From positions 124,001 through 188,000 of the forward strand of contig PHCX01000008.1 of NCBI GenBank assembly GCA_002842435.1: DNA of 64,000 nt, written 5' to 3'. Shown piece by piece: positions 3,644-53,249 of the stretch (position 1 is its first letter; the number at the start of each line of letters is the position of its first letter). This DNA comes from Betaproteobacteria bacterium HGW-Betaproteobacteria-1. Lineage in GTDB: Bacteria; Pseudomonadota; Gammaproteobacteria; Burkholderiales; Methylophilaceae. Below the pieces are notes generated by a model. The model was given only the letters and a program-made list of their open reading frames with translations. It was not told the DNA's origin and made no database searches. The position numbers and the translations under genes were made by a program.

Positions 3644-4519
3644 GTGGACTACCTTGCCGGTTACCTTGAACATCTGGCATTCGAGCGCGGACTCAGCCCG
3701 CTGACACGGGAAAATTATGCACGCGACATCCGGCTGCTGCTCACGCTGGCAGACAAAACACCGCTGAATGACCTGACCAGCAACCACATCCGCCGCTTCA
3801 TCGGCAATGTGCATGGCCGAGGCACCGGCGGCAAAAGCATTGCCCGCCATTTGTCAGCCTGGCGCGGATTCTTCGACTACCTGATCCAGCGCCACGGCTT
3901 CAGCAATAACCCCTGTACCGGCATGCGCGCCCCCAAAAGCCCGAAGTCGTTGCCACAGGCCTTGTCTTCCGACCAGGCCATCCAATTGGTGACAATAGAA
4001 GGCGATGAGCCGCTAACCCTGCGCGATCGCGCCATCCTTGAATTATTTTATTCCTCCGGTCTGCGCCTCGCCGAACTGGTTGGCTTGAATATCGACGCTC
4101 TCAACTTTGCCGAAGGCACCGTTATTGTCACCGGCAAGGGCAGCAAGACCCGCATCGTGCCTGTCGGCAGCCATGCCACACAGGCCATCCGCAACTGGCT
4201 TGGCATCCGCAACACCATGACACCAGCAGAAGAAACTGCCCTGTTCGTCAATCAGCGCGGCAAACGTATCAGCGCACGCGCCGTGCAATACCGCATCAAG
4301 GAATGGGCAATCAAGCAGGGGATCAGCAGCGATGTGCACCCGCACATGCTGCGTCACAGTTTTGCCAGCCATGTGCTGCAATCCAGCGGCGACTTGCGCG
4401 CCGTGCAGGAGATGCTGGGACACGCCAATATCAGCACGACCCAGGTATATACGCATCTCGACTTCCAGCATCTCGCCAAAGTTTATGACGCCGCACACCC
4501 GCGGGCGAAGAAGAAATAA
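3644..4519 (+). CDS. xerC: Tyrosine recombinase XerC
   Basis: Site-specific tyrosine recombinase that, with XerD, resolves chromosome dimers at dif. The 291-residue protein starts at a GTG (MDYLAGYLEHLAFERG). It has an N-terminal SAM-like core-binding domain (about 1-90) and a catalytic domain with the complete active set: R141, K165, H234, R237, H260 and nucleophile Y269 (QVYTHL). The dapF-DUF484-xerC context and typical length favour chromosomal XerC over a phage or integron integrase. It is the last gene of the run; about 200 bp without a gene separate it from sodB. Confidence 0.95.
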   Translation: MDYLAGYLEHLAFERGLSPLTRENYARDIRLLLTLADKTPLNDLTSNHIRRFIGNVHGRGTGGKSIARHLSAWRGFFDYLIQRHGFSNNPCTGMRAPKSPKSLPQALSSDQAIQLVTIEGDEPLTLRDRAILELFYSSGLRLAELVGLNIDALNFAEGTVIVTGKGSKTRIVPVGSHATQAIRNWLGIRNTMTPAEETALFVNQRGKRISARAVQYRIKEWAIKQGISSDVHPHMLRHSFASHVLQSSGDLRAVQEMLGHANISTTQVYTHLDFQHLAKVYDAAHPRAKKK

Positions 4520-50929: not shown

Positions 50930-51864
50930 CCGCACGGCAGGACGCCCTCGTCGAAGTGGTCGACACCATCCGGCGCCATAACCTCAGCTTGGAGGAAATC
51001 ACCGAAGCATTGCGTGACGGGCCGGAGATCAAGGAGCAACAATCAAGCGGAATCCTGTCGCGCGTGTTCGGTTATATAGGCGGCATTTTCGTGTTTGCCG
51101 GGCTGGCCATTTTTATCGGCATGCAATGGGATGTCTTGGGAACGGCGCAGCGCATCCTGCTGACTCTGGGCAGCGGATTCTGCGTCTTTATCATGGCGCT
51201 GGCCTGTACGACCAACGACCGGCTCGAAAAAGCAGCCACGCCATTGTTCCTTGTGGCGGCGCTGCTGGAAGCCACCGGCATCCTGGTCACGCTCAAGGAA
51301 TTCTCGCTCGGCGGCGACCCGGCCCACGGCCTGCTGTTCCTGCATTTCGTCATGGCCCTGCAGCAAGGTTGCGCGTTCATTGCCAGACAGCGCAGCGTAC
51401 TCGCGGTCACCACGGTTTATTTTCTGACCGGCTTTTTTGTCATCGCGTTCGATCTGCTGGAAGTCGACCGCCATCTGATCGGTTCGACCATCGGTCTCTC
51501 GCTGCTATGCATCGGCTGGGCGCTCGACCATTCACGCCACAAACCGGTAGCGGGGCTGATGTATTTCTTCGGTTCTATCCTGTTCCTGGCCGTAGCCCAC
51601 GATTGGCTCGATGGCGGGCCTTTTGACATTCTTTTCCTGGCATTGGCTTGCGGCACCATCTTCCTCAGTACCGTCGCACGCTCACGCACGCTGCTGTTCG
51701 TTGGCACGCTGGCGCTCATTTTCTATATCGGGGATTTCATGGCCGAGCATTTCGCCAACAACCTCGCGGGGCCCATCGGGCTGATATTGGCCGGCTTCAT
51801 GCTCATCGGTGTCGGCGCCGTAGCGGTGCGCATCAACAACCGCTACATCCGGGAGAAAAGTTAA
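50926..51864 (+). CDS. DUF2157 domain membrane protein
   Basis: A 312-residue protein with a short N-terminal soluble helix region (residues 1-40) and then about eight membrane helices. GILSRVFGYIGGIFVFAGLAIFIGMQW, only sampled here, is the DUF2157 opening. It is translationally coupled to the gene before it. Function unknown. The next 96 bp contain a short fragment of a second SPFH gene and then a mobile-looking element. Confidence 0.8.
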   Translation: MTARQDALVEVVDTIRRHNLSLEEITEALRDGPEIKEQQSSGILSRVFGYIGGIFVFAGLAIFIGMQWDVLGTAQRILLTLGSGFCVFIMALACTTNDRLEKAATPLFLVAALLEATGILVTLKEFSLGGDPAHGLLFLHFVMALQQGCAFIARQRSVLAVTTVYFLTGFFVIAFDLLEVDRHLIGSTIGLSLLCIGWALDHSRHKPVAGLMYFFGSILFLAVAHDWLDGGPFDILFLALACGTIFLSTVARSRTLLFVGTLALIFYIGDFMAEHFANNLAGPIGLILAGFMLIGVGAVAVRINNRYIREKS

Positions 51865-51917
51865 GGGTTTAACCGGCCGCTGAAAAACTACTGCGGTGGC
51901 CATCAACGGCGTCGCGC

Positions 51918-51950
51918 GGTGCCGTCAGAAACCTGGTCGGCGGCAAGTAG
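51918..51950 (+). pseudogene. 3' fragment of a second SPFH (QmcA-like) gene
   Basis: Ten codons and a stop, GAVRNLVGGK*, identical in protein to the end of the SPFH gene at 49149-49991. The DNA agrees at 27 of the last 29 bases before the stop. Upstream the likeness fades within about 10 bases. It directly precedes the DUF559 element, so a second SPFH gene or a duplicated segment was probably deleted here. Confidence 0.7.
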
Positions 51951-51960
51951 CGCCGGGTAG

Positions 51961-52002
51961 CCTCACACCCCCATCCTAACCTTCCCCCTGTCAGGGGGAA
52001 GG
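51961..52002. repeat. Left 42-bp terminal inverted repeat
   Basis: Identical, as reverse complement, to 52400-52441. It holds an 11-bp-stem hairpin with a one-base centre (about 51980-52002) and the stop codon of the DUF559 gene. Confidence 0.9.
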
Positions 52003-52389
52003 CGTGTTGAGGTTTAACGACACTGTAATGGTGCGATGAATTTGCTCAACTACATCTCCAGTATTTTGCAGAACTTCATTGTTCCAGAAACGCAGAATTT
52101 TCCAGCCTTGCTGCTCCAGCCATTCGGTACGTGTTCTGTCTGAAGTCAGCAATTCGCCGTGTTGACCTCCATGCACCTCGATAGCCAATTTCACCTCAAT
52201 ACAGGCAAAATCCAGAATAAATTTACCAACCGGATGTTGGCGCCTGAATTTCAGACCGTCTATCTGTCGACCGCGCAATCTTCTCCATAAGTGAGATTCT
52301 GCATCAGTCATCTTGCTGCGCAATTGACGAGAGAAGTTTCTGGATTGCGGTGAAATTCTTTGCATGCTTTGATAATTCAATAAACTCAA
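51991..52389 (-). CDS. DUF559 endonuclease-like protein
   Basis: A protein of about 132 residues of the DUF559 family, which belongs to the PD-(D/E)XK nuclease group and is related to Vsr. MTDAESHLWRRLRGR, LKFRRQHPVGKFILDFACIEVKLAIEVHGGQH (sampled) and GWKILRFWNNEVLQN are the family signature; the D of ILDF and E of AIEV are the likely metal ligands. Start is either the TTG at 52389, with AAGGA from the right repeat at good spacing, or the ATG at 52365 (MQRISPQ). The last codons and stop lie in the left repeat. No other gene is in the element. Confidence 0.88.
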   Translation of the reverse strand: MSLLNYQSMQRISPQSRNFSRQLRSKMTDAESHLWRRLRGRQIDGLKFRRQHPVGKFILDFACIEVKLAIEVHGGQHGELLTSDRTRTEWLEQQGWKILRFWNNEVLQNTGDVVEQIHRTITVSLNLNTPSP

Positions 52390-52399
52390 TACTTTGTTT

Positions 52400-52441
52400 C
52401 CTTCCCCCTGACAGGGGGAAGGTTAGGATGGGGGTGTGAGG
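52400..52441. repeat. Right 42-bp terminal inverted repeat
   Basis: Perfect reverse complement of 51961-52002, with the same internal hairpin (52400-52422). It ends 61 bp before the moeB/thiF stop. Confidence 0.9.
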
Positions 52442-52502
52442 TTACCGACTACAACCTCTAGTCGCCAGCCCAGCCTTATTCAAAGCCAATTCAAATTGGA
52501 TA

Positions 52503-53249
52503 CTACCCGCCGCACACCTTGCACGCCGGGTCCTTGGCCAGCTTGAGCGAGCGCCATTCCATATGTAGCGCGTCCAGCAGCAACAAGCGCCCCTGCAAAC
52601 TCTGGCCGATGCCCATCAACAGTTTCATCGCCTCCGCCGCCTGCGTGGTACCGATAATGCCCACCAGCGGCGAGAACACGCCGCTCTCTGCACAGCGCAG
52701 CCCTTCCTCGTTGCCGATCTCCGGGAACAGGCAGTGATAACAGGGGCTGTCATCAGCACGCATATCAAACACCGTCACCTGCCCCTCGAAATTGATTGCA
52801 GCACCTGACACCAGCGGCTTGCGCAGTTTCACGCATATGCGGTTGAGTGCGTAACGCGTAGCGAAATTATCACTGCAATCAATCACCACATCGGCCTCAG
52901 CTACCAGTGCCTGCAGGCTATCCTCGGTCGAACGCTCGCATACAGTGCGCACCTCCACATCCGGATTGATTTCATAGATAGACTGCTGCGCAGAAACTGC
53001 CTTGTTGATACCGACCGATTGCGTGGTATGGATGATCTGCCGCTGCAGATTGGTGAGATCCACCACATCGAAATCGCAGATCGTCAGCTTACCGACTCCG
53101 CCCGCCGCCAGATAAAGCGCGGCCGGCGAACCGAGCCCACCAGCACCGACGATGAGCGCATGGCTGTTGACCAGTTTTTCCTGGCCTTCGTAACCGATTT
53201 GCGGGAGAAGAATGTGCCTGCTGTAGCGCAGGAGTTGGTTGTCGTTCAT
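52503..53249 (-). CDS. moeB: ThiF/MoeB-type adenylyltransferase
   Basis: Adenylates the C-terminal glycine of a small sulfur carrier (ThiS or MoaD) before sulfur transfer. The 248-residue E1-like protein has LLRYSRHILLPQIGYEGQEKL, the nucleotide loop GAGGLGSPAALYLAAGGVG, DVVIDCSDNFATRYALN, and two C-x2-C zinc pairs (CYHC and CKVC). No fused rhodanese domain. MoeB and ThiF cannot be separated by eye; neither moaD nor thiS lies nearby. It sits 6 bp downstream of the pilus operon on the same strand. Confidence 0.9.
   Translation of the reverse strand: MNDNQLLRYSRHILLPQIGYEGQEKLVNSHALIVGAGGLGSPAALYLAAGGVGKLTICDFDVVDLTNLQRQIIHTTQSVGINKAVSAQQSIYEINPDVEVRTVCERSTEDSLQALVAEADVVIDCSDNFATRYALNRICVKLRKPLVSGAAINFEGQVTVFDMRADDSPCYHCLFPEIGNEEGLRCAESGVFSPLVGIIGTTQAAEAMKLLMGIGQSLQGRLLLLDALHMEWRSLKLAKDPACKVCGG

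Follow-up and report, generated by a model that had tools for sequence, protein, structure and literature searches.

The stretch of DNA analysed here, called the window below, comprises 64,000 nucleotides of the genome of Betaproteobacteria bacterium HGW-Betaproteobacteria-1. Between its convergent genes DUF2157 and moeB lie two inverted arms (51956-52002 and 52400-52446; 47 nt, 98% complementary), whose inner parts (51961-52002 and 52400-52441; 42 nt) match at 100%, as an earlier sequence-only reading of this DNA had recorded. The 23-nt palindrome which that reading placed within each repeat is also there, at 51980-52002 and 52400-52422, a single central base separating arms of 11 bp. When folded, it forms a 10-bp stem with a 3-nt loop (-18.1 kcal/mol, RNA parameters), and with up to 3 mismatches allowed it appeared in 0 of 100 shuffles of the window. 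The features of the locus are the following.

51921..51951, plus strand: 31-bp match to the end of a same-genus stomatin-like (SPFH) gene, abutting the element
51956..52002, plus strand: left inverted arm, an outer C-rich tail and then the palindrome, tail outward (47 nt, 98%)
51961..51979, plus strand: left unpaired tail CCTCACACCCCCATCCTAA, read from the sequence
51980..52002, no strand: left 23-nt palindrome, holding the DUF559 stop codon
51991..52389, minus strand: DUF559 gene, 132 aa, TTG start (Pfam PF04480, E=2.8e-39)
52400..52422, no strand: right 23-nt palindrome, whose end gives part of a candidate ribosome-binding site, AAGGA
52400..52446, minus strand: right inverted arm, the palindrome and the outward tail TTAGGATGGGGGTGTGAGG (47 nt, 98%)
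52503..53249, minus strand: flanking moeB, whose downstream spacer is the comparison site within the genus

Besides the DUF559 ORF, no ORF of at least 60 aa is present between the arms, and therefore the unit encodes no transposase, in agreement with the earlier description of repeats that enclose this gene alone. That description also holds in placing the stop codon inside the left repeat and a plausible ribosome-binding site partly in the right one: the candidate AAGGA upstream of the DUF559 start begins inside the end of the right palindrome. The left tail CCTCACACCCCCATCCTAA is the counterpart of the purine-rich tail (the GGGTGAGGG type) found beside hairpins at other DUF559 loci, and the tails of the window unit point outward, the rarer type among these loci. 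On the tail side, the bases directly beside the palindromes are AA and TT, and GTAG occurs solely in the left tail, at the end away from the palindrome (51957-51960). No Rfam match was obtained in 51800-52600, the window DNA had no match in a search of plasmids, and no methyltransferase was recognised among the immediate neighbours, whose ORFs were judged by eye. The perfect identity of the two ends had also been read as a sign of recent insertion; this part was not supported, as arms can be homogenised and direct repeats of at least 6 bp were absent around the unit for the end positions tried.

The DUF559 protein of the window keeps all residues that are invariant in a 40-sequence alignment, including E31, D60, E71, H77 and D84; E31, D60, H77 and D84 are presumably the letters of the EDxHD motif. 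It is alone in this alignment in having H in place of the nearly invariant D73; an H there presumably resembles the active site of E. coli Vsr. Its predicted structure (mean pLDDT 80.6) matched the folds of 3hrl (Z 17.4), I-Bth0305I (Z 13.2) and Vsr (1cw0, Z 9.9), the last being tied with mitoribosomal chains at Z 9.4-9.6; the match to TnsA was weak (Z 5.9), and structure matches under Z 8 were not used. I-Bth0305I, the nearest characterised fold, was matched by sequence profile too (E 5e-5). Structural modelling thus predicts a PD-(D/E)XK protein of the Vsr/I-Bth0305I type with nuclease activity. YcjD of E. coli had earlier been assigned to PD-(D/E)XK, with a profile-based connection to Vsr (accessible part of PMC1189080).

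Judged from codon comparisons, DUF559 orthologues are under purifying selection, with dN/dS of 0.07-0.17 for the four Xanthomonas pairs compared and of 0.04-0.08 for the four from Pseudomonas, dS being saturated in several. For copies within one genome, the ratio is 0.97 (the two closest) and 0.30 in genome G131, both on few changes; for G420 it is 0.17 and for G447 0.30. The gene occupies the same place in four Xanthomonas loci and in four Pseudomonas loci, and vertical inheritance therefore dominates there. The protein matched 41 of 72,556 plasmid records (E<=1e-10), some of them megaplasmids or chromosome-sized. Carriage by phages was considered and set aside, as merely 1 of 50,697 phage records matched (E<=1e-8).

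The architecture of the window unit recurs far beyond its locus, which bears out the proposal that gene and ends form one unit. Across a set of 100 genomes, a DUF559 match was found in 32, the window's own included, and 19 of the 22 stronger loci (window unit counted) have such a hairpin or a flank-to-flank inverted repeat. None of the eight weaker loci does; six of them are in large frames, L036 is cut by a contig end, and at L040 there is just a 12-bp GC repeat together with a hairpin, but not a C-rich one. A larger sample consisted of the best 80 relatives, from many phyla, out of at least 588 stretches in genome contigs, a sample ranked by similarity and so biased to the window's DUF559 branch. 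Counting perfect, C-rich hairpins with a stem of at least 9 that lie no more than 300 bp from the gene, and scoring loci cut by contig ends as misses, we found a hairpin upstream at 54 and downstream at 57 of these best 80 loci, on at least one side at 67 and on both sides at 44. Control windows of equal size from the same loci had a hairpin in 19 of 1114 cases, against the 67 of 80 at the DUF559 genes. The expectation that DUF559 genes elsewhere would be flanked by palindromes is thereby confirmed, and the contrary outcome that the sequence-only reading had itself raised, repeats confined to the locus or homologues without such ends, was examined and is contradicted by the recurrence.

In a set of 101 loci, flank-to-flank inverted repeats had a median score of 51, compared with 22 for mismatched flanks, and a score of at least 60 was reached at 39 loci (among them L048, which owes its score to a run of Ns) against 2 of 101 mismatched. 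Upstream tails point toward the gene at 43 of the 101 loci, away from it at 10 and both ways at none, with 16 unclear; for downstream tails the corresponding numbers are 47, 9, 4 and 15, and the remaining loci lack a hairpin on the side in question. These loci thus show short palindromes whose unpaired tail is conserved and which frequently come as inverted doublets, as do the 17 doublets in genome G096. The association between the palindromes and DUF559 is near certain.

Palindrome and nuclease also go together at the level of genomes. Class-wide, in 369 genomes, at least one palindrome is found in 62 of the 76 with a DUF559 match (E<=1e-10) and in 77 of the 293 without. When at least 10 copies are demanded, a cut that guards against counting just the gene-adjacent palindromes, the numbers are 37 of 76 versus 24 of 293 (Fisher 1.8e-14, for genomes that are not independent, close pairs being among them). 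The reversed pattern, as a control, had 14 matches in total versus 2978 for the palindrome pattern, which misses variant stems: G131 has units and zero pattern matches. In the set of 100 genomes, the palindrome is present in 19 of 23 with DUF559 (best hit >70 bits) and 13 of 77 without. RAYT as the sole hidden cause was rejected, since the association persists in genomes without a RAYT over the cut-off (10/12 with DUF559 vs 8/63 without, p=2.7e-6); in genomes with one, the counts are 9/11 vs 5/14 (p=0.04). Exceptions exist on both sides and are counted against the explanation preferred below: in 14 genomes at least 20 palindromes occur without a DUF559 match (E<=1e-10), and 14 others have DUF559 but not the palindrome pattern.

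The type of palindrome follows the DUF559 lineage. On the DUF559 tree, the stem class of the palindrome, assigned in 68 of 79 rows, changes 16 times, whereas 500 shuffles gave no fewer than 22 changes, a signal to which same-genus rows contribute; when the classes were shuffled within host class (66 rows), the minimum was 21 against the 16 observed. The two flanks have the same stem class at 39 of 44 loci, where 19 are expected.

Comparison of unit copies makes the mobility of palindrome-DUF559 units likely. Genome G131 has three units of ~534 bp at different sites, 98% and 91% alike; the homology between the closest two stops sharply at the unit ends, and 8-bp direct repeats flank all three (8/8, 8/8 and 7/8). 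These units all lie within copies of another short palindromic repeat and two of them share ~80 bp of flank, so that the flanks are not wholly unrelated. Beyond the hairpins they have extra outer inverted repeats which, with the 8-bp direct repeats, are typical of DDE transposition. With up to 3 mismatches, this outer repeat is found in that genome solely at the units, at 5 of the 6 ends; the idea that it is the end of a known plasmid element was dropped for want of a useful plasmid match. Further pairs of units within one genome are 90% (G420) and 84% (G447) alike. Outer repeats containing TATCTACAC were also noted outside the hairpins in three genomes (L188 1106, L050 943-1500 and L170 1098), and perhaps these form a second layer of mobile element ends.

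Hairpin-DUF559-hairpin insertions are found in frame within host genes, adding ~152 aa to hsdM, 147 aa to a DNA methyltransferase gene and 172 aa to ygiQ, each judged by one aligned homologue, which runs on uninterrupted at that point. Plasmid records covering 80% of the query numbered 0 of 3375 for hsdM and 0 of 74 for ygiQ. For the methyltransferase they numbered 99 of 407, the best being joined from 2 or 3 pieces; such coverage is expected because the insert makes up merely 16% of that query. In the complete genome G096, 34 of the 47 hairpins form 17 gene-less doublets (0.1 expected), with a spacing of 86-96 bp in 13 of the 17. Both tails point inward in 11 of these doublets and at least one does in 16, while none of the 17 has them outward. 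The spacers of the doublets resemble one another little more than shuffled ones do, and around the 17 doublets target duplications did not exceed those in shuffles; set against the 8-bp repeats of G131, this means that two routes may exist.

An empty site was also sought for E. coli ycjD, present at 80% query coverage or more in 3362 of 5426 E. coli genomes; this candidate was rejected, as an efflux cluster occupies that place in each of the three strains examined among those without ycjD (cf. the accessible part of PMC12817139). In S. meliloti (L202, ~1635), a deletion with its end at the hairpin has shortened the DUF559 gene, and the spacer of Shinella that corresponds to the Sinorhizobium one has hairpins and no gene. 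These two cases are suggestive of an unstable spacer and fall short of proof of insertion.

In the window's own 2.5-Mb genome (G000), the window gene is the one DUF559 match, no match to NF047646 (RAYT) was found, and the palindrome pattern occurs five times, twice at the unit and three times in one cluster on contig 7. The contig 7 palindromes, arranged in pairs with tails inward, belong to a tandem duplication at a gene's 3' end, and a further, imperfect palindrome pair is on contig 4. The tandem duplication of the two-palindrome stretch on contig 7 (L013, 2190-2500; tails inward) also copied the end of the neighbouring gene.

Within the genus, the spacer downstream of moeB has one imperfect palindrome of the form tail-hairpin-tail, without the gene, in G003 (genome 85% complete, MoeB 97% identical). 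In G004 it has a complete unit, oriented the other way and with tails inward, and in G001 and G002 neither palindrome nor gene; in G005 a moeB match was not found. The comparison of orthologous moeB spacers, which had been proposed for defining the ends, thus supplied a gene-less palindrome and a full unit; as an empty site the spacers had to be given up, being too divergent for the exact ends to be read. Beside the unit in G000 is the 31-bp near-copy of a stomatin-like gene end (51921-51951), and in G003 the stomatin-like gene directly abuts the palindrome; the spacer has therefore been rearranged. Its sequence fits an unstable, rearranging site, without demonstrating a recent insertion.

Palindromes of this kind have been described before. 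The intrastrand triplex motif (TM, Holder et al. 2015) is G/C-rich, and triplex formation in vitro is reported for the E. coli motif; according to the accessible part of that paper (PMC4666352), TM-type palindromes occur in >260 genomes and five times as inverted pairs in E. coli MG1655, and transposase or integrase remnants were never found near them. The same part of the text makes no mention of DUF, Vsr or endonuclease. In Enterobacter 638 there are 100 similar palindromes, CCCTCTCCC..GGGAGAGGG (PMC2869309, accessible part), and the accessible parts of these two papers name no linked gene for either set. The palindromes described here share with TM the G/C-rich hairpin and the purine-rich stretch able to fold back as a third strand, a likeness that for the window is one of sequence architecture alone. 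E. coli ycjD is itself a DUF559 gene and has a TM-like motif, CCCCTCACCCTAACCCTCTCCCCAGAGGGGCGAGGGG, ~170 bp downstream; no such motif was found on its other side. At the ycjD start in L134 (E. coli K-12, ~4256-4300), a different long inverted repeat, TCACCTCATTCTGACA...TGTCAGAATGAGGTGA, was noted.

The earlier analogy with RAYT enzymes and REP palindromes proved apt in architecture. Like REP/REPIN-RAYT systems, the present one has tailed palindromes, inverted doublets, many dispersed copies, a cognate gene between palindromes and co-variation of gene and palindrome. However, RAYT is a Y1 HUH transposase of the IS200/IS605 type, whereas here the gene encodes a predicted Vsr-fold PD-(D/E)XK nuclease; the GTAG/CGTC tag (defined in the accessible part of PMC3733652) is not directly beside the window palindromes, and the tail of the DUF559 palindromes is a longer purine-rich strand (the GGGTGAGGG type). 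Because the defining enzyme and tag are absent, the system is not a REP/REPIN-RAYT member, although similar in working. It resembles the EDxHD, or Vsr-fold, homing endonuclease I-Bth0305I in predicted fold (Z 13.2) and sequence profile (E 5e-5), but the window gene is free-standing between palindromes and not in an intron or intein. Vsr, the very-short-patch repair endonuclease for T:G mismatches with its linked cytosine methyltransferase, is likewise similar in predicted fold (Z 9.9 to 1cw0), but the window unit has palindromic ends and no methyltransferase recognised in its immediate neighbours. With MITEs and small insertion sequences it shares terminal inverted repeats and, at the G131 units, the 8-bp direct repeats; unlike them, it has tailed-hairpin ends, no transposase gene and no duplication at the G096 doublets or the window unit. 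The accessible texts of the literature searched, a search with preprints and most subscription papers outside its scope, contained no report of a link between DUF559 and palindromes.

On balance, we consider it probable that these loci belong to a widespread REP/REPIN-like repeat system with the DUF559 nuclease as its partner enzyme, and that the window holds one unit of it. A full unit would consist of a palindrome, the DUF559 gene and an inverted palindrome, and gene-less inverted doublets and solo palindromes would be its non-autonomous relatives. The DUF559 protein may recognise the tailed hairpin and nick or cut beside it, whereupon the repair or replication of the cell would copy the unit or doublet elsewhere; the joining step could be a RAYT-like single-strand transfer or a homing-like break repair. 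A role of the nuclease as mobiliser of the palindromes is plausible. The more far-reaching proposal, a new transposase-free class of elements in which one nuclease of the Vsr fold would spread itself, gene-less doublets and solo palindromes through bacterial genomes of many phyla by acting on tailed hairpins that form triplexes, is a serious possibility that stops somewhat short of probable. The idea of a small mobile element at this locus holds in part: the unit is recurrent and related units behave as insertions, but the window copy is the sole one in its genome, lacks a target duplication and carries H where D is nearly invariant, all of which count against the preferred explanation.

The palindromes or units could also be moved in trans by a DDE transposase or a RAYT, with DUF559 as selfish or useful cargo, which we regard as rather unlikely. 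Such a course is suggested by the G131 outer inverted repeats beyond the hairpins with their 8-bp direct repeats, by the TATCTACAC shared between the outer repeats of L188 and L050, by the 14 genomes with at least 20 palindromes and no DUF559 match (E<=1e-10), and by three repeated segments in Legionella that hold a transposase together with DUF559 (accessible part of PMC12308824). Nevertheless, the G131 outer repeat (up to 3 mismatches) is found solely at DUF559 units and has no good plasmid match, the association persists in genomes without a RAYT over the cut-off, and the palindrome class tracks the nuclease tree.

Homing is less probable still. Here a free-standing DUF559 endonuclease would cut gene-less palindrome alleles and its gene would enter pre-existing palindromes or doublets by break repair, the palindromes themselves not being dispersed. 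The nearest characterised fold is indeed that of a homing enzyme, I-Bth0305I, a DUF559 gene has been noted as an EDxHD homing endonuclease among inteins (accessible part of PMC9403480), and the orthologous moeB spacer of G003 has a single imperfect tail-hairpin-tail palindrome without a gene. However, palindrome copy number tracks DUF559, palindromes are nearly all gene-less where they are many, and whole units lie within host genes whose aligned homologue is free of palindromes at that position.

Very unlikely, in our judgement, is a function in host maintenance or defence, with a repair or restriction-type nuclease that resolves hairpins or triplexes and palindromes that are terminators or autoregulatory sites. 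It would agree with the purifying selection between orthologues, with the location conserved in two genera and with Caulobacter VsrA (DUF559), a predicted mismatch-repair endonuclease tied to cytosine methylation (accessible part of PMC12907096), but it leaves whole-unit copies at new sites and the in-frame insertions unexplained. Local terminators without any mobile element can practically be dismissed: the window arms do lie between convergent DUF2157 and moeB and fold as stable hairpins, but the architecture recurs at 67 of the best 80 of at least 588 loci, and tails, inverted doublets and stem-class co-variation would go unexplained.

To our knowledge, no means of dispersal is known for TM-type palindromes, and we know of no settled function for DUF559 (E. 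coli YcjD); a link between them offers both a role that can be tested. If the proposed element class is real, it would account for the enterobacterial intrastrand-triplex repeats and perhaps for similar rhizobial and cyanobacterial palindromes. Should the nuclease prove to be the mobiliser, REP-like systems would have had two or more origins, with enzymes unrelated to each other, and a nuclease of the repair type would be able to act in mobility.

Two further loci were noted among rhizobia and cyanobacteria. The palindromes beside the Sinorhizobium DUF559 gene (L199, 2372-2519) look like the rhizobial RIME repeats and seem to be behind most of the matches in 117 plasmid records, in at least 558 places. 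On the Picosynechococcus plasmid pAQ6 (L197), CCCCC..GGGGG hairpins with GGGGGC tails surround the DUF559 gene, a cyanobacterial variant of the same plan.
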